A stretch of DNA of 59,462 bases from Myxococcota bacterium (lineage in GTDB: Bacteria; Myxococcota_A; Polyangia; Polyangiales; Houyiibacteriaceae), in the NCBI GenBank assembly GCA_028284955.1, contig JANQQS010000116.1:1-59462 (forward strand), in the 5' to 3' direction. Numbering within the stretch: the first letter of the stretch is position 1; each line of letters begins with the position of its first letter. Shown piece after piece: positions 37,407 through 46,312 of this stretch. Position numbers and translations under genes: made by a program. The notes beneath the pieces are model-generated. The model did no database searches. It was given only the letters and a program-made list of their open reading frames with translations, and was not told the DNA's origin.

Positions 37407-38516
37407 TTAGCGCGTCACTTTGAGGTTACGCACCAGGTCTTTGGGGCTTCGGGCGGCGGCGCGCGCGGTATCTACACTGACGGCTCCGCTTTTCACCAGC
37501 TGCAGGAGCTGGGAGTCGAAGCTGTAGGTTCCGTGCTCGTGGAGGCCTTGGTCGAGCACTTGGGGCAGTTGGCGAAACCGGCTGGGTTCGCGGATGCAGT
37601 CTTGCACGGTGCCGCTATTGCGGAGGATTTCGGTGACCAGAATGCGCTCGCGTCCGCCGCGTTGGGCCACGAGTTTTTGCGATACAATCGCGGTGAGAGC
37701 ATCGGCGATGCGGGCGCGCGCGGCGCCTCGAAAATCGGGCGGGTAGAGGTTCATCATGCGGGTAATGGCGCCGCTGCTGTCGGACGAATGAAGCGTAGAA
37801 ATCACCATATGACCTGATTCGGCCGCGCTGAGCGCGACATCGAACTCATCGAGGTTTCGAATCTCTCCGAGAAAAATCACGTCAGGGTCTTCGCGCAGCG
37901 CGCCCGTCAAGCCGTGCCCAAAGCTATCCACATCGCGGCCGACCTCGCGCTGAGAAAAGGTCGAGACCTCATCATCGAAGAGGTATTCGATGGGCTCTTC
38001 GATGGTCACAATATGCTTCGGGGCTTGGCTGTTGATGAACTGCAGCATCGACGCGATGGTGGTCGATTTCCCGTTTCCGGTGGCGCCCGTGACCAAGACT
38101 AAGCCCCGCTCGGCGAGCGCGATCTGCTTGACCACCGGCGGCAGCCGAAGCGCGGCGGGCTCGGGCACAGGGTGGCGAATATGCCGAAGCACCAACGCCG
38201 GGGTCCCTCGTTGATGGTACACATGGCAGCGAAAGCGGCCCACTTGCGGCACTGCGCAGGCAAACTCGACTTGTCGACCGCCGAGGCGATCGGGAGGCAC
38301 ACCAGCCCAGAGGCCCAGCGTCGTGATCGCTTCGCGAACGGTGGAGGTTTCGAGTTCCGGATGTTCGAGCGGGCAGAGCTCGCCTTCGACGCGAACAAAA
38401 GGCGGCACGCCGGAGCGCAAATGGATATCTGAAGCCTGAGCCGCGAGGCTTCCTTTGATGATGCGCAGGGCAATTTTCAGCCCCGGACTGACCTCGGACT
38501 CGGCAACTTGCATCAT
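37407..38516 (-). CDS. pilT: Type IV pilus retraction ATPase PilT
   Basis: A 369-residue secretion ATPase. Walker A GATGNGKST, Asp box TIEEPIEYLF, Walker B VIFLGEIRN, His box STLHSSDSSGAI, and a PilT-type ending close to ARSPKDLVRNLK. PilT depolymerises pili and powers twitching. I place the start at ATG 38516, which overlaps the csrA-fliW stop (ATGA), rather than at 38567, because the preceding 17 residues are non-conserved and inside the other gene. It is therefore the last gene of the flagellar operon and translationally coupled to its regulator; no other pilus gene is in the window. Confidence 0.92.
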   Translation of the reverse strand: MMQVAESEVSPGLKIALRIIKGSLAAQASDIHLRSGVPPFVRVEGELCPLEHPELETSTVREAITTLGLWAGVPPDRLGGRQVEFACAVPQVGRFRCHVYHQRGTPALVLRHIRHPVPEPAALRLPPVVKQIALAERGLVLVTGATGNGKSTTIASMLQFINSQAPKHIVTIEEPIEYLFDDEVSTFSQREVGRDVDSFGHGLTGALREDPDVIFLGEIRNLDEFDVALSAAESGHMVISTLHSSDSSGAITRMMNLYPPDFRGAARARIADALTAIVSQKLVAQRGGRERILVTEILRNSGTVQDCIREPSRFRQLPQVLDQGLHEHGTYSFDSQLLQLVKSGAVSVDTARAAARSPKDLVRNLKVTR

Positions 38517-39253
38517 GACTCGTTCTCCGCTCCTTGATGTTCTGCTCGTCGATTCTTCATGGGGCACGGCTCGCCAGAATCGACCGTCAAAGGATGGCGC
38601 ACGCTGAGTACTTCCGTCTTCCCGCTTACCCCCGCGCTTCGAATCGCCTGGGGATCCAAAATCACTTGCACCCCTCGGCGCGACTCCAGGCCAATCACCA
38701 GCGGCGCGGCCAGATTCACGGTGGGTACGCCGCCGTCGGCAGGTGCGGTGACGATCGCGGCCACCGCAAGCTCGGATTCGCCGCTACCGGCGTCGCCATC
38801 ATCGCGACCGCCGAGTCGCGACGCGATCCGCGCGGCTTCAACCGGGAAATTAGGATCGACCGTGCATGCATCCACCGCGAGCAAGCGTATGGAGGGGTCG
38901 ACGATCGAAACCAGCGCCCGAACTCGATCTGCTTCGCTCGCCTGCTCGCCGCGCAGCGGCTCATTTAGTTCGCACACCACGAACCTTCGATGGTTGGCGA
39001 GCCCAAAGAGCCCGTCGGGAAATGTGATCACCGCGCTTTCGTCGACAGGCGGCAAGCTAAAGCGTTCCTTGCCACGGCTCGCCATCTGGTTTTCGGCTTC
39101 AATGCGGTCGATGAGCTCGCCGCGATGAACCGAAAGCTCACGCGGAGCCCGGATTCCGATTCGCACCCGCCCCCCGTTCACCGATACAACCTCCACCTCA
39201 ACTTCGGAGCCGATAACGATGCGTTGTCCTGCGCGACGGGTGAGGGTAAGCAT
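38513..39253 (-). CDS. CsrA-FliW fusion protein
   Basis: A 246-residue fusion. Residues 1-57 are a complete CsrA: MLTLTRRAGQRIVIG, VRIGIRAPRELSVHRGEL, with the RNA-binding Leu4/Arg44-type positions present. After about ten linker residues, 68-225 form FliW: ITFPDGLFGLANHRRFVV, LVSIVDPSIRLLAVD, TVNLAAPLVIGLESRRGVQVIL, SVRHPL. About 20 polar residues end it. CsrA represses translation of target mRNAs; FliW binds and inhibits CsrA until flagellin takes FliW away. Here both are one chain. It lies 2 bp after flgL and overlaps pilT. No frameshift is needed to join the two halves. Confidence 0.93.
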   Translation of the reverse strand: MLTLTRRAGQRIVIGSEVEVEVVSVNGGRVRIGIRAPRELSVHRGELIDRIEAENQMASRGKERFSLPPVDESAVITFPDGLFGLANHRRFVVCELNEPLRGEQASEADRVRALVSIVDPSIRLLAVDACTVDPNFPVEAARIASRLGGRDDGDAGSGESELAVAAIVTAPADGGVPTVNLAAPLVIGLESRRGVQVILDPQAIRSAGVSGKTEVLSVRHPLTVDSGEPCPMKNRRAEHQGAENES

Positions 39254-39255
39254 AG

Positions 39256-40131
39256 CTATCCTTGGGCCAGCCCGGCGGGGGGCAGTTGAGCTGCGATCTG
39301 AACCGCGGTTTCAAGCGCCGACTGGGCCCGCTCGAAATCCAAAAACGCGTCGACCGGGTCCGCGCCGATCTGTTCTCCTTGGCGAATCGTCGCTAGATCG
39401 CGGGTCCGCGTGGCGACTTGATGCGCGGTTTCGAAGGCGCTCATGCGAGCCCCCACTTCGACGCGCGCTTCGACGACTTGGTCATGCACGAGATCGATGG
39501 TGTCGATCGCGGTTTGAATCGCGGGCACATCGTCCGACGCCAGAGCCGTCACAATCGCGTCGAGCGTGGCCAGCACATCGGTCGGTGTACCGACGCCAAA
39601 CGCCGTCGACCCCGACACGCCAACCCCCAAACGAACCCCCACGCCGACCTCGACCTCGCGAACGCTGCCGTCGCCGAAATACGCGCCGGTCGCATCGAAG
39701 GGCGGGCTGTCGTCCGGGTATCCTGCGAACACGTAGCTTCCGCCCGACTCGGCGTTGCCAAGCGCGACGATACTTTGCCGAAGTTCATCGACCTCTCGAG
39801 ACATCGCGGCGCGTTCGCTCGCGGTGACCGTCGCGGTGGCACCGACAAGCGTGATCTCTTTGACCCGCCGAACGACCTCCGCGACATCACCCAGCGCAGA
39901 ATCGGCTACATCAATCGCCGCCCGACCCGCGTCGATCGCGCGCAGATGGCCTTCGGCGCGCACCTCTCGGCTTCGCGCCTGCCGCGCCAGACTCGTCGCC
40001 AGCGGGTCATCCGACGGCTTGAGCACGCGCCGACCGGTTGCGGCTCGCTCCTGGGTCTTCGCGAAATCGGCGCGCGCTCGCGAGAGCTCACGTCGATTGA
40101 GATTGTAGATCATGTTGTCGGAAACTCTCAT
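39256..40131 (-). CDS. flgL: Flagellar hook-filament junction protein FlgL
   Basis: A 291-residue FlgL (HAP3). The flagellin-like N-terminus (MRVSDNMIYNLNRRELSRARADFAKTQERAATGRRVLKPSDDP) and C-terminus (FLDFERAQSALETAVQIAAQL) pair to form the D0/D1 coiled-coil bundle; the middle is variable, including a Val/Gly-rich stretch. It links hook to filament with FlgK. It follows flgK by 4 bp and precedes csrA-fliW by 2 bp. Confidence 0.93.
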   Translation of the reverse strand: MRVSDNMIYNLNRRELSRARADFAKTQERAATGRRVLKPSDDPLATSLARQARSREVRAEGHLRAIDAGRAAIDVADSALGDVAEVVRRVKEITLVGATATVTASERAAMSREVDELRQSIVALGNAESGGSYVFAGYPDDSPPFDATGAYFGDGSVREVEVGVGVRLGVGVSGSTAFGVGTPTDVLATLDAIVTALASDDVPAIQTAIDTIDLVHDQVVEARVEVGARMSAFETAHQVATRTRDLATIRQGEQIGADPVDAFLDFERAQSALETAVQIAAQLPPAGLAQG

Positions 40132-40135
40132 GCCA

Positions 40136-41527
40136 TCACCGCAAGTTCATGAGTTCGCCGAGCATCTCGTCCGCTGTCTGAATCACGCGCAGCGATGCTT
40201 GATAAGCTCGTTGAAACTGCGTCAAAGAAACCATTTCTTCGTCTACCGAAACGCCAGAGACCCCTTCGCGAAGCGCGGTCACTTGTTCGAGAGCAGCCCC
40301 CGCGGCCTCCTCTTGGCCGATCGCAACCTGCACCGCGCTCGCGCCGGTTGCGATCAATGACGCGTACGCATCGGTGACCGTGGCGGTGCCCCCAAGCGCG
40401 ATCGGTGCTTCGCTCAAATCGAGAAGCGCGAGCGCGTTTCGGTTGTCGCCTGGGGTTGCTGTGGCGTCGGCAGCTGCGCCGATGGCATCCGGAAGCCCTG
40501 CAACGTCAGCAGAAATTCCGATGCTCTCCGCAGCGCCGGCTGCGGACGCAAGCGGCTCGAAGATGTTTCGTCCGCTGGCCCCGTCGAGGCCGACCCCAGC
40601 TGCGTGCGCCGTGTTGTACGCAGCCGCAAAATCAAACGCCAGCTGGTCGAGGGAATCGCGCGCATCGGAAAGCGCTCCGTCGCGCGCATCGATCAAACCA
40701 CCGATGATGCCTGAGCCGATCGTCGCGGTGATATCCACCACCGCCCCGGCGGTCGTGCGATAAATCTGGGTATCCCCCGACGTGGGATCGATCGATGTTT
40801 GAAGCCCTTCGACGTGACCATCGGGAGAAACGAGCGGAAGGCCGCCCGAGAGCAACAGCGAGATCGTGCCGTCGCCTTCGTCGAGAACTTTCACCGGAAC
40901 TTGTTCGGCTACATCGCGCACCAACTGGTCGCGCCGATCGCGCAGATCGCTGGCTTCCCGACCTCCGAGCTCCGACTGAGCAATTTGTACGCCCAAAGAA
41001 CCGATCTCGTCGAGCCGGTCGTTGAGCTCGGCAACTTCTCCTTGAATGCGCTCATTCAGATCGACGCGGCTTTGCACGAGTTCTCCGGCCGCGACATGGA
41101 ACGCGTCTGCGACCTGCTCGGCTCGAGAGAGCAGCGTCACTCGGGGTCCCGGGTCGCTGGGGTACGCCGCGAGGTCAGCAATCGCGGAATGAAACGCGTC
41201 GATGGCGTCGCCGAGGTTTCCCGCGCCATCTGAGAAAATAACATCGAGCACGCCGAGTGCGCCGGAGCGGGCGGAAGCTTCGCCCTGAAACGACTGAGCA
41301 CCGAGCATGCGCCGCTCGAGGAACTGATCCACCACGCGGCGCTGTCCAACGGCTCGCGCGCCGTTCCCGGGCTCTGGTGGACCGCCAACCGGCTGAATGT
41401 TCGCGATGCGGCGAGAGTACCCCGGCGTATTGACGTTGGTGGCGTTGTTCGAAGCCACATGCGAACCGAACGACTGCGCGGTCATCCCGTTTCGTCCTAC
41501 GCCCAAAATGCCGAATAGTGTACTCAT
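40136..41527 (-). CDS. flgK: Flagellar hook-associated protein FlgK
   Basis: A 463-residue FlgK (HAP1). N-terminal STLFGILGVGRNGMTAQSFG, the rod/hook motif NNATNVNTPGYSRR, and the C-terminal SVDEEMVSLTQFQRAYQAS with IQTADEMLGELMNLR are all diagnostic. Size is at the short end of the family. It caps the hook before FlgL. Gap to flgN is 21 bp. Confidence 0.95.
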   Translation of the reverse strand: MSTLFGILGVGRNGMTAQSFGSHVASNNATNVNTPGYSRRIANIQPVGGPPEPGNGARAVGQRRVVDQFLERRMLGAQSFQGEASARSGALGVLDVIFSDGAGNLGDAIDAFHSAIADLAAYPSDPGPRVTLLSRAEQVADAFHVAAGELVQSRVDLNERIQGEVAELNDRLDEIGSLGVQIAQSELGGREASDLRDRRDQLVRDVAEQVPVKVLDEGDGTISLLLSGGLPLVSPDGHVEGLQTSIDPTSGDTQIYRTTAGAVVDITATIGSGIIGGLIDARDGALSDARDSLDQLAFDFAAAYNTAHAAGVGLDGASGRNIFEPLASAAGAAESIGISADVAGLPDAIGAAADATATPGDNRNALALLDLSEAPIALGGTATVTDAYASLIATGASAVQVAIGQEEAAGAALEQVTALREGVSGVSVDEEMVSLTQFQRAYQASLRVIQTADEMLGELMNLR

Positions 41528-41548
41528 CGCGCTCGGTACAACCCGCCC

Positions 41549-41896
41549 CTACACCCGCCCGTGAAGCCTTCGTCCGGGAATCGAACGTGACGCTTCACCG
41601 CGTTGGCCGTAGCTTTGGGGGCTCGCAGCGCCGAACGTGCCCTGCAGACACTGCGCGAGCAGTTGCATGAGACGAATGTTCTCCTGGGCCATGCGCTGAA
41701 TTTCTCGCCGCTCGTCAGCGGGCTGCGGCCGTTTTCGCAACGCGGCGAGCACGGCCTTTTTTGCTACTTGGAGCTCTTCCAGCGCGTGTACATCCGCGCG
41801 ACGTAGGGCGTCGCGCTCGAGATTCAGCAACTCCAAGAAGCGTTGCGACTCCGTGGTGGATGCAGATGCAGGGGCCCTATCCGACTGAGAGCTCAT
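41549..41896 (-). CDS. flgN: FlgN-like flagellar export chaperone
   Basis: A 115-residue helical protein with heptad-like Leu/Ala spacing (RFLELLNLERDALRRADVHALEELQVAKKAVLAALRKR). Sequence alone is weak for FlgN, but size, helical character and the position between flgM and flgK, its export clients, support the call. The C-terminal 20 residues are basic and low in order. It starts 1 bp after flgM. Confidence 0.65.
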   Translation of the reverse strand: MSSQSDRAPASASTTESQRFLELLNLERDALRRADVHALEELQVAKKAVLAALRKRPQPADERREIQRMAQENIRLMQLLAQCLQGTFGAASPQSYGQRGEASRSIPGRRLHGRV

Positions 41897-41897
41897 C

Positions 41898-42161
41898 TCA
41901 GACTTCTTCTACCAGCATGCGTCGCGCGATTTTCAGAGGATCAATTTCGAACGTGCCGCTCTGAATGGCTTCTCGAAGACGACTGATTCGATCCTGGTCC
42001 GGAACTTCCGGCCCCTGCGCGTCCATCAACGATTGCGCCACGGGTGAAAGCGTGACGCGTTCTTGAGGCGCTGCGGTGCGCGCGGGTGCGGCACCACGCA
42101 CATGTGCGGAACGGTGGGTTTTCTCTACGGGCACGGGTCTCGCTGGGCCATGAACCTTCAT
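41898..42161 (-). CDS. flgM: FlgM-like anti-sigma-28 factor
   Basis: An 87-residue protein whose C-terminal half has the FlgM pattern (DRISRLREAIQSGTFEIDPLKIARRMLVEE), the part that binds sigma-28. The N-terminal half is basic and unstructured in appearance, as needed for export. It would hold late flagellar genes off until the hook is finished. It overlaps the flgJ-type gene by 4 bp. Confidence 0.85.
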   Translation of the reverse strand: MKVHGPARPVPVEKTHRSAHVRGAAPARTAAPQERVTLSPVAQSLMDAQGPEVPDQDRISRLREAIQSGTFEIDPLKIARRMLVEEV

Positions 42162-43438
42162 GGTTTTCCCTCCACATAAATCATCGGTCGCTTACCTTCG
42201 GAACTTGAGGTCAAAAATGAACCCCTCGAACGCAATTCGGATGGGTCGGCATCGAGCACCGACGGGCCGGCCGCTCTCGAAAGAGGTATTTCATTACGAA
42301 AACCGGTTTTGGGCGTTTTGAGCTCGATGATTTCGATGCGCGAGAGCCCGTTGCGCGCGCCTTTGGCGGCTCCCCCGGCGTGGCCCACTCGATTCCAGAC
42401 GCGCCGGGTAAGATGTTGTGCGCCTCCAGTGCGCGCCTCCCACCCATCAAACACCACGCGCTCGGGCCGACCGCTGTCGTCGTAGCGTACTTCGTGCACG
42501 CGCTCGATGACCGCCATGTGCCCCGCGTGCCCTTTGCTTCCGCTCCCGGTCAGCAGGAACGCGCGCTGGCCGGCGCGCGTCGCGGCATCGAGCGATTCGG
42601 CCGATTCGCCGGTCACCACGCGGCCCCAGTCGCTGGAAAGCACACCGTCAGCCGCGTCCTGTGTCACTCGATCCGGATCGGGATAGCCCAAGCCGCGTCG
42701 ACGAGCGGTCAGCGGCACCTGAAATCCCGCCCGGCGAACCACCTCAAACGCGAACAAGTTGCATTTGTAGCTCCCATGAAACCCGGCCGCGTCTCGTACA
42801 TTGAATCGGGCCACGCCGCCGTCTACCCGGAGCGAGACATCGCTCGAGAGGTCGCCAGGCTGGAGCCGGCCGTCGCGCCCCCATCGAACGGCAGCGCCGC
42901 CCTGGACCATGTCGCCGGCGGCTTCACGCAACGCTTTGGTCTTTCCGTAGGTAGGGTCGAGCGCCGATAGCTTGAGCGTAGAGAGATGTTCGCCGGGACC
43001 GAGCGGAATCGGCGCTGCGGTCGGCATCCCTCTTTTTGAGAATGCGCCGTGTATTGAACGATCAGAGTTTGGCGCCAAGATCTTGGCCGGGCTTCCTTTG
43101 GGCGCGAGCGCGCTCTCGAGCATGTCGGCGACGCCTACCCCGCCGTTTCGAGTCATCGCGGAGGACATCGCTTCGTCCATCATGTGCAGATACATGTTGC
43201 CGCCAGGCCCGGACCCGCCCAGGGCGCCGCTCTTGATGGTGCGCCGCATGGTTTGCCAGAGCTGCTGAATCAGAAGCCCTTCAAACTGTTGAGCCGCGTC
43301 TTTTAAACTCGGCGTCGACGCCTTACTCCTAGAGAGAGACTGGCTCCCAGGAAGAGACTGGCTCCCAGGAAGAGACTGGCGCGTCGAAGCGGGTTCGAGC
43401 CCGGGGATGTTCGCGGCGCCAACTGCGGGAACGGTCAC
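42158..43438 (-). CDS. flgJ: FlgJ-type rod protein with C-terminal cysteine-peptidase-like domain
   Basis: A 426-residue protein. Residues about 43-110 are the FlgJ rod-binding domain (LKDAAQQFEGLLIQQLWQTM and MDEAMSSAM). The C-terminal domain is not a glucosaminidase: it shows KCNLFAFEVVRRAGF with Cys226, and GHAGHMAVIERV with His304/His307 about 80 residues on, the Cys/His order of CHAP/NlpC-P60-like amidases or peptidases. This domain would open peptidoglycan for the rod. The N-terminus holds SLPGSQ repeats from an 18-bp array (43335-43380). It overlaps flgI and flgM by 4 bp each. Confidence 0.85.
   Translation of the reverse strand: MTVPAVGAANIPGLEPASTRQSLPGSQSLPGSQSLSRSKASTPSLKDAAQQFEGLLIQQLWQTMRRTIKSGALGGSGPGGNMYLHMMDEAMSSAMTRNGGVGVADMLESALAPKGSPAKILAPNSDRSIHGAFSKRGMPTAAPIPLGPGEHLSTLKLSALDPTYGKTKALREAAGDMVQGGAAVRWGRDGRLQPGDLSSDVSLRVDGGVARFNVRDAAGFHGSYKCNLFAFEVVRRAGFQVPLTARRRGLGYPDPDRVTQDAADGVLSSDWGRVVTGESAESLDAATRAGQRAFLLTGSGSKGHAGHMAVIERVHEVRYDDSGRPERVVFDGWEARTGGAQHLTRRVWNRVGHAGGAAKGARNGLSRIEIIELKTPKTGFRNEIPLSRAAGPSVLDADPSELRSRGSFLTSSSEGKRPMIYVEGKP
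43335..43380. repeat. 18-bp coding minisatellite in the flgJ-type gene
   Basis: AGAGACTGGCTCCCAGGA occurs twice in direct succession and starts a third time. It encodes SLPGSQ repeats in the N-terminal linker before the rod-binding domain. Confidence 0.85.
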
Positions 43439-44589
43439 TGTATCTCCACGTCGGCTTGCAGGGCCCCCGCGGTGCGGAGCGCTTGAAAAATCGCGATGAG
43501 GTCGCGCGGACCAGCGCCCAGCGCGTTGAGCGCTGAAACAACGTCAGCCAGACTGGCTGAGTTTGGAACGACGCGCAGCGCTCCAGGAGCTCCTCCCGGG
43601 CTTTTCACCTCAGCCTGAACCTCGGTTTCGGGAACCACCGCGGTATCTCCGTCGCCTAGTGCTTGCGGTTGCGATACCGCAAAGCTTTCTGAAATCTCGA
43701 CGGAGAGGCCGCCCTGCGCGATGGCCACCTCAGAAATCCGCACCCCCGACCCAAGCACCACGGTACCGGTGCGCTCATCGATCACCACGCGGGCCGGCGC
43801 GCTGGGCTCCACGTCAAGCATTTGTACCGCCGCCACCAGCCCCACGGGGTCGCGACGAAAACGCTCCGGAACCCATACGCGAACCGTTCCACTGTTGGGC
43901 GCGGACGCGACCCGAGCTCGAAAATGACTGTTGATGGCAGACACGATCCGCTTGGCGGTAACGAAGTCGGGCGTGCGCAAGCTGAGCTCGATATTGTTTC
44001 CGCTCACCATGCGCATCTTCACCGGTCGCTCTACGATCGCGCCGTTCGGAATTCGGCCGGCCGTGACGTGGTTAAGGCTGACTGAGCTACCGCTCCCGCC
44101 ACTCGCCGAAAACCCGCCGATCACCACCGGGCCTTGGGCTGCAGCGTAGACTTGGCGGTCTGCACCCATCAATGGCGTCTGAAGCAAAGTGCCGCCAAGC
44201 AGGCTCTTCGCGTTGCCAAGCGACGATACGGTCACGTCGATTCGAGTGCCGGGGTTTGAATGCGGCTGCAGGCTCGCGGTCACGATCACTGCCGCAGCGT
44301 TCTTGGTTTGAATGGTTGCAGGGTCGAGCGTGGCTCCGAGACGACGCAGCATCGCCGCAGTGCTCTGAATCGTAAAGCGGGCCTGACCGGTGTCTCCAGT
44401 ACCGTTTAATCCGACTACCAACCCGTAGCCAATGAGCTGGTTCTGGCGAATGCCTCGCACCTCGCAGAGCTCTTGAATGCGAGCGGCTTGGACCGGGCGA
44501 GCGGGGCACGTTGTCAGTACGAATGTCGCGGCGGCCAACCCGGCCGCGTATCTCCTTGCACAAGACATCAGAGGAACTGCACAAAACAT
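43435..44589 (-). CDS. flgI: Flagellar P-ring protein FlgI
   Basis: A 384-residue FlgI with an N-terminal signal sequence and the strongly conserved ELCEVRGIRQNQLIGYGLVVGLNGTGD, NAAAVIVTASLQPHSNPGTRIDVTVSSLG and DLIAIFQALRTAGALQADVEIQ at the C-terminus. It forms the periplasmic P ring around the rod. Its presence with FlgH shows a diderm envelope. The start overlaps the flgH stop region by 1 bp. Confidence 0.96.
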   Translation of the reverse strand: MFCAVPLMSCARRYAAGLAAATFVLTTCPARPVQAARIQELCEVRGIRQNQLIGYGLVVGLNGTGDTGQARFTIQSTAAMLRRLGATLDPATIQTKNAAAVIVTASLQPHSNPGTRIDVTVSSLGNAKSLLGGTLLQTPLMGADRQVYAAAQGPVVIGGFSASGGSGSSVSLNHVTAGRIPNGAIVERPVKMRMVSGNNIELSLRTPDFVTAKRIVSAINSHFRARVASAPNSGTVRVWVPERFRRDPVGLVAAVQMLDVEPSAPARVVIDERTGTVVLGSGVRISEVAIAQGGLSVEISESFAVSQPQALGDGDTAVVPETEVQAEVKSPGGAPGALRVVPNSASLADVVSALNALGAGPRDLIAIFQALRTAGALQADVEIQ

Positions 44590-45395
44590 CAGAAAGGCCT
44601 CACTTTAGAAAGGACGCGAGAAAGCCATCCTTGCCGCTGATTGTCACTAAGCGCGCCTCGCCCCGTGAACTCCACTTGCGCATCGGCCACCAGGCTCGAG
44701 CGAACCGAGTTGTCGGTTTCAATATCCGAAGGCCGGACGACGCCAGAGATGTAGACGTGAAGCTCTTCGTCGTTGATGAGAATCACCTTGGTCCCTTCCA
44801 CGAAGAGGTCGCCATTCGGGAGCGCACGTTTCACCCGCACCGCGACCGTGCCTGCGACCCGGCCTCCGCGAGACGTTTCTCCGTCGCCCGCGAAGCTATG
44901 GTCGCTCATCAGCTGAAGTAGAGACGAAGGGTTGATGTCGGGATGAGCCGACTGCAGCGCGGTCATGAATCCGAGTAGATTGGGAATCCCCGCCGTATGG
45001 TCGGCCTGGCGGTCGAGCGCGGTTCCTGCATCTCCGCTGGCGCGCGCGGTTTCGTCGATGCGCACTGTCACGATGTCGCCCACGCGACTGGCGCGAAAGT
45101 CTGAAAACAGCCCCTTGGTGGCATCTTGCCAGAGCGAACCTTCCGACACCGAGGAAGGCGCGCGTTCGTAGTCGCCCGGCCGATAGTTGCGCGCCCGTTC
45201 GGCCTTCGGCTGAATATGGCGCGGCGTGCACGCGGCGAGACATGCGACCGACGAAAGACAGAGTATCGAAAAGACATACGGTATCGGCAAGACACGCGGC
45301 ATCAGCGAACGAAACATCCGTCTGTTCTCGAGGCAGTGACTCGTAGGGCGACGATTCGTAGGGCAACGATTCGTAAGGCGGATCGCGGCGCTCAC
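44589..45395 (-). CDS. flgH: Flagellar L-ring lipoprotein FlgH
   Basis: A 268-residue FlgH. The lipobox is CLAACTP, followed by GSLWQDATKGLFSDFRASRVGDIVTVRIDETARASGDAGT, then LFVEGTKVILINDEELHVYISGVVRPSDI and SDNQRQGWLSRVLSKV, all family hallmarks. It forms the outer-membrane L ring. ATG 45395 overlaps flgA by 4 bp; ATG 45317 would give a more normal signal peptide. The extra N-terminal residues (RLTNRCPTNRRPT) come from a 15-bp array at about 45338-45380. Confidence 0.94.
   Translation of the reverse strand: MSAAIRLTNRCPTNRRPTSHCLENRRMFRSLMPRVLPIPYVFSILCLSSVACLAACTPRHIQPKAERARNYRPGDYERAPSSVSEGSLWQDATKGLFSDFRASRVGDIVTVRIDETARASGDAGTALDRQADHTAGIPNLLGFMTALQSAHPDINPSSLLQLMSDHSFAGDGETSRGGRVAGTVAVRVKRALPNGDLFVEGTKVILINDEELHVYISGVVRPSDIETDNSVRSSLVADAQVEFTGRGALSDNQRQGWLSRVLSKVRPF
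45338..45380. repeat. 15-bp minisatellite at the flgA/flgH junction
   Basis: Three units of the form GACGATTCGTAGGGC with small changes lie where flgH begins. In the flgH frame they encode Arg/Pro/Thr-Asn repeats ahead of the signal peptide. Confidence 0.75.
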
Positions 45396-46096
45396 TGAAT
45401 CACCTCGACCGTACGCCCATCAACCACCCGCGCGCGCAACGCAATGCCGGTATGACTGCGTACTCGAATCACGTCGCCCACGCGGCCAGGCTGTTGGGCT
45501 TCGCCAGACACGGCGGCTTTGACATTGCCCACCACCGCAACCACACGCACCCGCGCACCAGGAACGACCGCCGGAGGAGGACAAGAAAGCCTCGCCCGCA
45601 CGGGGAGCCGTCGTTCGACGCCGCCGACCCGCAACCGCAACATTCCGCTGGTCGCGACTCCTGAACCTCGAGGCCGACGCATATCCGCCGCAACCTGCAC
45701 GCGGCCCTGCGGCAGCGTGACCGCGCCGGGAACCCGCACGTCGTCTACCGTGCATGGAGCAAGCGCCTGCGCCACCGCAACGCGCGCCCGGGCGCGAATG
45801 GTGTCGCGATCGAGCTCCTGAGCGCCTCGCTCGACCACAGTGCGCCGGGGAATCGAAAGCCCGCGAACGCTATGCCCACCCTCTTTGAGCGCGGCCAACA
45901 CCTGGCTGCGCCGAACCACCACGCTATGCCCCGGAGGCGGGGCGCTGGCTACCTCGACGCGGCCAAGCGGCGCGCCCTCCAGCGCAGGAATGATTTCGTG
46001 AAGCAGAATACGATCGCGCGTTTGTTCTAAAGACGCATCGGCATCGACCGAAGCAGGAAACAAAACAAACCACAACATCGCGAACAACAACCGCAT
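45392..46096 (-). CDS. flgA: Flagellar P-ring assembly chaperone FlgA
   Basis: A 234-residue FlgA with signal peptide MRLLFAMLWFVLFPASVDA and a C-terminal SAF-like domain ending GRVGDVIRVRSHTGIALRARVVDGRTVEV, as in the family. FlgA helps FlgI build the P ring in the periplasm. ATG 46096 gives a family-like length; the frame is open to 46234, but a sigma-54-like promoter at 46168-46184 falls inside that extension. It is the first gene of the operon. Confidence 0.88.
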   Translation of the reverse strand: MRLLFAMLWFVLFPASVDADASLEQTRDRILLHEIIPALEGAPLGRVEVASAPPPGHSVVVRRSQVLAALKEGGHSVRGLSIPRRTVVERGAQELDRDTIRARARVAVAQALAPCTVDDVRVPGAVTLPQGRVQVAADMRRPRGSGVATSGMLRLRVGGVERRLPVRARLSCPPPAVVPGARVRVVAVVGNVKAAVSGEAQQPGRVGDVIRVRSHTGIALRARVVDGRTVEVIQ

Positions 46097-46167
46097 CGCG
46101 AACGGCAGCCGCGGCAAACGTGTAGGTCGGAACGAGTCAAAGGAACCACGCATACTCGCGCTCAGAA

Positions 46168-46184
46168 GAGCACGGACCGTGCCA
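46168..46184 (-). promoter_or_regulatory. Candidate sigma-54 promoter of the flagellar operon
   Basis: Read on the - strand, CTGGCACGGTCCGTGCT matches the -24/-12 consensus TGGCAC-N5-TTGC except for one base (GTGC for TTGC). It lies about 70 bp upstream of flgA ATG 46096. Sigma-54 control of hook and basal-body genes is common. The same bases form a small palindrome GCACGG/CCGTGC, so chance is possible. Confidence 0.45.
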
Positions 46185-46312
46185 GCGGTTTTTTCGCGTG
46201 TTTTCCCCGATACGACCGCCAATACGTCAAACAACCGTCGCGTTTCCGTGAAGCAGGGACAAAATCGTGGCGGCAGCCCGCAGCCCTAGGAGGCTGGCAG
46301 TACAACGAGTCC

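Follow-up and report, generated by a model that had tools for sequence, protein, structure and literature searches.

Introduction

In the known flagellin circuit, CsrA is blocked allosterically by FliW until flagellin binds the latter, and the CsrA so freed represses flagellin translation (PMC7652899, PMC6070490). About one FliW is present per CsrA dimer in Bacillus subtilis, where this ratio is held by translational coupling (PMC6529632); in Campylobacter jejuni a CsrA2-FliW2 complex is observed, and Ala at V51 or N55 of CsrA weakens FliW binding (PMC7829508). The accepted model requires FliW to leave CsrA in order to bind flagellin. Here we describe a gene in which the two proteins form one chain, such that FliW cannot leave, and which thus offers a direct natural test of whether dissociation is needed or a change of shape alone relieves CsrA. 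The original prediction of this fusion knew of no characterised example, and we found no description of a natural CsrA-FliW chain in the literature searched, a body of work outside which lie two key 2016 PNAS papers and a 2011 paper.

Results

A csrA-fliW fusion follows a run of flagellar genes

The fusion gene lies at 38513-39253 on the minus strand of the window (the whole 59,462-nucleotide stretch analysed here) and encodes 246 amino acids in a frame that is free of stops from its ATG start to its TGA stop, with a typical CsrA N-terminus (MLTLTRRAGQ); the fusion is found in 13 genomes. Immediately upstream is flgL (39256-40131, minus), whose stop is 2 bp ahead of the fusion ATG, and which itself follows a flgA-flgH-flgI-flgJ-flgM-flgN-flgK run (40136-46234, minus) assigned by Pfam, flgN scoring under the gathering cut-off. 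The FlgJ-like protein of this run (42158-43438, minus) has a rod-binding domain at residues 63-108, and its long C-terminal part matches nothing in Pfam. Downstream, the ATG of a gene for a PilT-like T2SSE ATPase (37407-38516, minus) overlaps the fusion stop (ATGA), an arrangement that joins it to the flagellar operon and may link flagellar with pilus or other motility genes.

The CsrA domain comprises residues 1-57 (39083-39253, minus) and includes the RNA contacts R6 and R44 as well as the FliW contacts I51 and N55; PF02599 matches residues 1-52 with 71.1 bits against a cut-off of 27 (E 7.5e-20). Residues 58-75 (39029-39082, minus) form a junction that is devoid of the canonical N-terminal R-F-G signature of FliW and, in the structure model, still lies over the beginning of the FliW fold. 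PF02623 (FliW) then matches residues 76-202 (38648-39028, minus) with 53.3 bits against a cut-off of 25 (E 3e-14). NCBIfam agrees, the CsrA equivalog scores being borderline (NF002469, 73 against a cut-off of 73; TIGR00202, 68.1 against 70.1) and the FliW scores falling under the cut-off. The AlphaFold2 model of the fusion, built from a 70-row alignment, has a mean pLDDT of 84 and a pTM of 0.75. Its FliW part matches the solved FliW 5dmb_A with a Z of 14.5 over 137 residues (61-227), so that the fold match reaches to about residue 227, and its CsrA part matches the CsrA chain 1vpz_B (Z 4.9, residues 1-53) along with other CsrA/RsmA chains. The C-terminal tail (residues 228-246; 38516-38572, minus) is of low confidence, with pLDDT mostly <50. 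The CsrA helix 45-59 ends at residue 59 and the FliW fold starts at 61-64, leaving almost no free linker in the model.

CsrA and FliW had been predicted to occupy one uninterrupted frame between flgL and pilT, and this holds: alignment to the two families returned Pfam matches above the curated cut-offs and fold matches for both domains, and the frameshift or stop between them that could have undone the prediction is absent, the fusion being common to 13 genomes. On profile and residues the N-terminal part is assigned to CsrA/RsmA, for which homodimerisation and RNA binding are predicted, and on profile and fold the C-terminal part is assigned to FliW, with putative flagellin binding. A hidden internal start that would yield a separate FliW was rejected, since the internal ATG, GTG and TTG codons present in the fused genes include none that is common to all or has a clear Shine-Dalgarno (SD) sequence before it.

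The fusion is the sole copy and a lineage trait

The source genome (6.07 Mb, 96.6% complete) holds a single CsrA match and a single FliW match, and both are the fusion gene. A survey of the order Polyangiales, in which the fusion profile was run against 184 genomes and the frames were checked, gave 13 full-length fusions distributed over families f1, f2, f3, f6 and f10; in each of these genomes the fusion is the sole match, and separate csrA or fliW copies are kept in 0/13. Separate copies elsewhere in the genome, which could have shown the fusion to be dispensable, were thus looked for and not found. The sister families f12 and f7 have csrA and fliW as separate genes. No further full-length fusion occurs outside the clade among 379 genomes of the phylum Myxococcota, and a genome contig scan with two short exact peptide patterns, which is not exhaustive, turned up fusions in Myxococcota only. 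The 13 fused domains group together in a 62-row FliW tree (support 98/95, recovered in 98% of bootstrap trees), and a single origin is therefore well supported for this lineage trait. The search for other single-chain cases and their spread, suggested with the original prediction, hence ends in 13 Polyangiales genomes and one clade. Within the family of the source genome flagellin is present in 5/34 genomes, exactly the five with the fusion, and flagellin together with FliS is present in 13/13 fused genomes.

At three loci (L155:409-1323, L156:1154-2059 and L023:3908-4756) csrA and fliW share one frame with a single stop codon between them; such loci plausibly depict the stage that preceded fusion, and in L155 and L156 the RFG strand is intact. 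A second fusion in G455/G456, hinted at by equal open-frame lengths, proved false, as one in-frame stop divides the genes. A few Myxococcota genomes (G303, G370) carry two separate FliW genes.

The joint of the fused protein is rebuilt

R6 and R44, which bind RNA, are present in 13/13 fused proteins, and the FliW-contact positions I/V51 and N55 are each kept in 12/13. The exception at CsrA position 55 is L131 (genome G006), where Ile replaces Asn. In this protein the FliW contact may have moved, and the flagellin leaders of its genome retain CsrA-type sites despite the loss of N55. The NLxAP and GxQ core of FliW is invariant across fused members that are only about 43-53% identical to the 246-aa protein. 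The RFG signature of the first FliW strand is found in 0/13 fused proteins and the WLQS signature is changed to xLVS, both signatures being observed traits of nearly all separate FliWs compared and not a formal definition of FliW. We considered whether the first FliW strand itself had been lost and rejected this, as the structure match still covers the region and only the sequence signature is gone. The joint varies in sequence and length, with 20-27 residues between position 55 and the conserved F of FPxG in FliW. With family signatures rewritten and so short a joint, the fusion is more than two intact proteins joined by read-through: its joint has been rebuilt.

Flagellin mRNA leaders carry predicted CsrA sites

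Ahead of the start codon, both flagellin genes of the source genome (G000, contig C154) have a perfect GGA-loop hairpin, GGAUC-UGGAU-GAUCC and CCGAGUC-GGGAU-GACUCGG, respectively, which is followed by a second site, CUC-AAGGAA-GAG, a small hairpin that holds the SD GGA. A GGA hairpin of at least 5 bp at -60 to -19 occurs in 17/30 flagellin leaders of the fused genomes, against a mean of 1.9 in dinucleotide shuffles, none of 300 shuffles being as high; about 13/30 leaders are without a perfect GGA hairpin of this length. The upstream regions of 123 other ORFs are not enriched (6 GGA hairpins, 4.8 expected), and the SD hairpin pattern is present in 26/30 flagellin leaders of fused genomes versus 0/123 control ORFs. 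When 24 leaders were aligned, the two-hairpin structure named above had 80.5% of cells paired and showed compensatory changes, its covariation score being 0.229 against 0.121 for shuffled alignments (0/500 shuffles as high; sliding controls far lower). The alignment was partly anchored on GGA, omitted six leaders without a clear hairpin and included related sequences, and these figures therefore support the structure but do not prove it; an automatic fold of the same alignment recovered the SD hairpin only. An RNA covariance model run on five whole genomes gave 14 matches with E <0.05, all at flagellin leaders and in or near the training set, and the weight of this search is the absence of other strong matches among the 150 candidates scored per genome. 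Taken in silico, the flagellin leaders of fused genomes would carry two-site CsrA targets, one of them over the SD.

Sister Polyangiales with separate genes have a GGA hairpin in 1/29 and an SD-GGA hairpin in 0/29 flagellin leaders. In other Myxococcota with separate genes the GGA hairpin is found in 11/18 flagellin leaders against 1.1 expected. Its occurrence there and its lack in the sister group suggest that the two-site leader is probably the ancestral state, the fused lineage having retained it and the sisters having lost it. The f12/f7 flagellin leaders (L207-L236), nearly devoid of GGA hairpins, in many cases have CUCC-AAGAA-GGAG, whose stem would bury the SD, together with stem-loops further upstream that have AUGA loops. 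It is possible that CsrA control has been replaced by another device in these Polyangiales.

Discussion

A proposed single-chain, flagellin-gated repressor

On balance the fusion is probably a translational repressor that inhibits itself and is gated by flagellin, a variant of the Hag-FliW-CsrA switch in single-chain form. The fused chain would homodimerise via its CsrA domains, and the CsrA dimer would bind two leader sites, one being the GGA-loop hairpin, some 25-50 nt ahead of the start, and the other the SD-GGA hairpin. At low cytoplasmic flagellin, the attached FliW would dock near helix 45-59 (I51, N55) and keep CsrA off the RNA, such that flagellin is translated. When flagellin builds up, with the hook unfinished or export stalled, it would bind the FliW domain, which would undock yet stay tethered, and CsrA would then stop flagellin translation. 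The residues and leaders support the CsrA output of this scheme, and autoinhibition and release by flagellin are our inference.

As the fusion is the only copy, no free CsrA or FliW would exist unless the chain is cut. Since FliW cannot leave the fused CsrA, inhibition would have to act in cis or between dimer partners, and flagellin would have to undock a tethered domain, in a role presumably largely dedicated to flagellin. That release must occur as a change inside a single chain or dimer, as predicted, follows from a covalent fusion that is the sole copy. The covalent link was also expected to fix a 1:1 ratio; the fused chain is indeed so built, but the ratio itself is not new, CsrA2-FliW2 being known in C. 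jejuni, and the new element is that partner exchange is ruled out. More tentatively, flagellin may serve as co-repressor in a flagellin-FliW-CsrA-mRNA assembly, a one-protein circuit that would sense nascent flagellin on the mRNA encoding it and in which CsrA could no longer regulate other targets. If this were true, a global partner switch would have been turned into a dedicated flagellin circuit.

The main rival to the gated repressor is a rewritten FliW that no longer inhibits, which would make the chain a constitutive CsrA repressor with FliW as a flagellin-binding or folding module. The rewriting of RFG and WLQS in the fused clade means that binding of flagellin or CsrA may have changed, and the FliW scores of the fusion are weaker than those of the separate FliWs of the phylum. 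The invariance of NLxAP and GxQ in members so divergent argues against such a loss of function, however, as does the retention of N55 and I/V51 in 12/13 proteins, which would be needless if FliW made no contact; we regard this reading as unlikely, but one to be reckoned with. Feedback could also be local and co-translational, FliW gripping the N terminus of nascent flagellin while the CsrA domain attached to it occupies the mRNA under translation. In the known system FliW needs no more of flagellin than residues 1-72 for binding (PMC6070490), and in the fusion both activities reside on one chain, but sequence cannot tell this version from the gated repressor, and we give it a rather slim chance.

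The variable joint might alternatively be read as a place where the chain is cut after translation into ordinary CsrA and FliW, the fusion merely equalising their amounts. A modelled helix that nearly meets the FliW fold speaks against this, and the alignment shows no conserved cleavage motif, making cleavage very improbable. Relatives do have adjacent csrA and fliW in the same order, and in some cases only one stop interrupts their common frame; this is the setting in which an assembly or sequencing artefact could merge two genes; the fusion is nevertheless carried by 13 independent assemblies with a joint rewritten in a clade-specific manner, and an artefact or frameshift is thereby refuted and hardly conceivable. 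The gated repressor remains our preferred reading. The fusion moreover lends itself, as a ready-made soluble unit, to structural work on the flagellin-bound and RNA-bound states, and the sister lineages with separate genes, having probably lost the matching flagellin mRNA sites, provide a clean comparison.

Comparison with known systems

The B. subtilis Hag-FliW-CsrA system (PMC6529632; review PMC7652899) resembles the fusion in protein families, in the two leader CsrA sites and in the N55 contact. There, separate FliW and CsrA molecules change partners through titration, the ratio being about 1 Hag : 1 FliW : 1 CsrA dimer, whereas the fused chain brings two FliW domains to each CsrA dimer and allows no exchange. 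C. jejuni CsrA-FliW (PMC7829508, PMC4894983) shares the V51/N55 contacts, and its CsrA2-FliW2 complex has the stoichiometry built into the fusion, but csrA and fliW are separate and non-adjacent and the antagonist dissociates. The flgJKLMN-csrA-fliW operon of Geobacter sulfurreducens (PMC13407953) has the same site in a hook-junction flg operon, with csrA followed by fliW, yet makes two proteins from two genes. Sister Polyangiales f12 and f7 have the csrA-fliW order and residues R44/N55, but the genes are separate, often far apart, and their leaders are nearly devoid of the GGA (1/29) and SD-GGA (0/29) hairpins. Measured against the Hag-FliW-CsrA partner switch, the fusion departs from it in the separate, exchanging molecules, being one chain with no other copies, and agrees with it in the two predicted leader CsrA sites, one over the SD, in both source-genome flagellin genes and most of the clade, as well as in the Asn at CsrA position 55, which is present in 12 of the 13 fused proteins with L131 as the exception.
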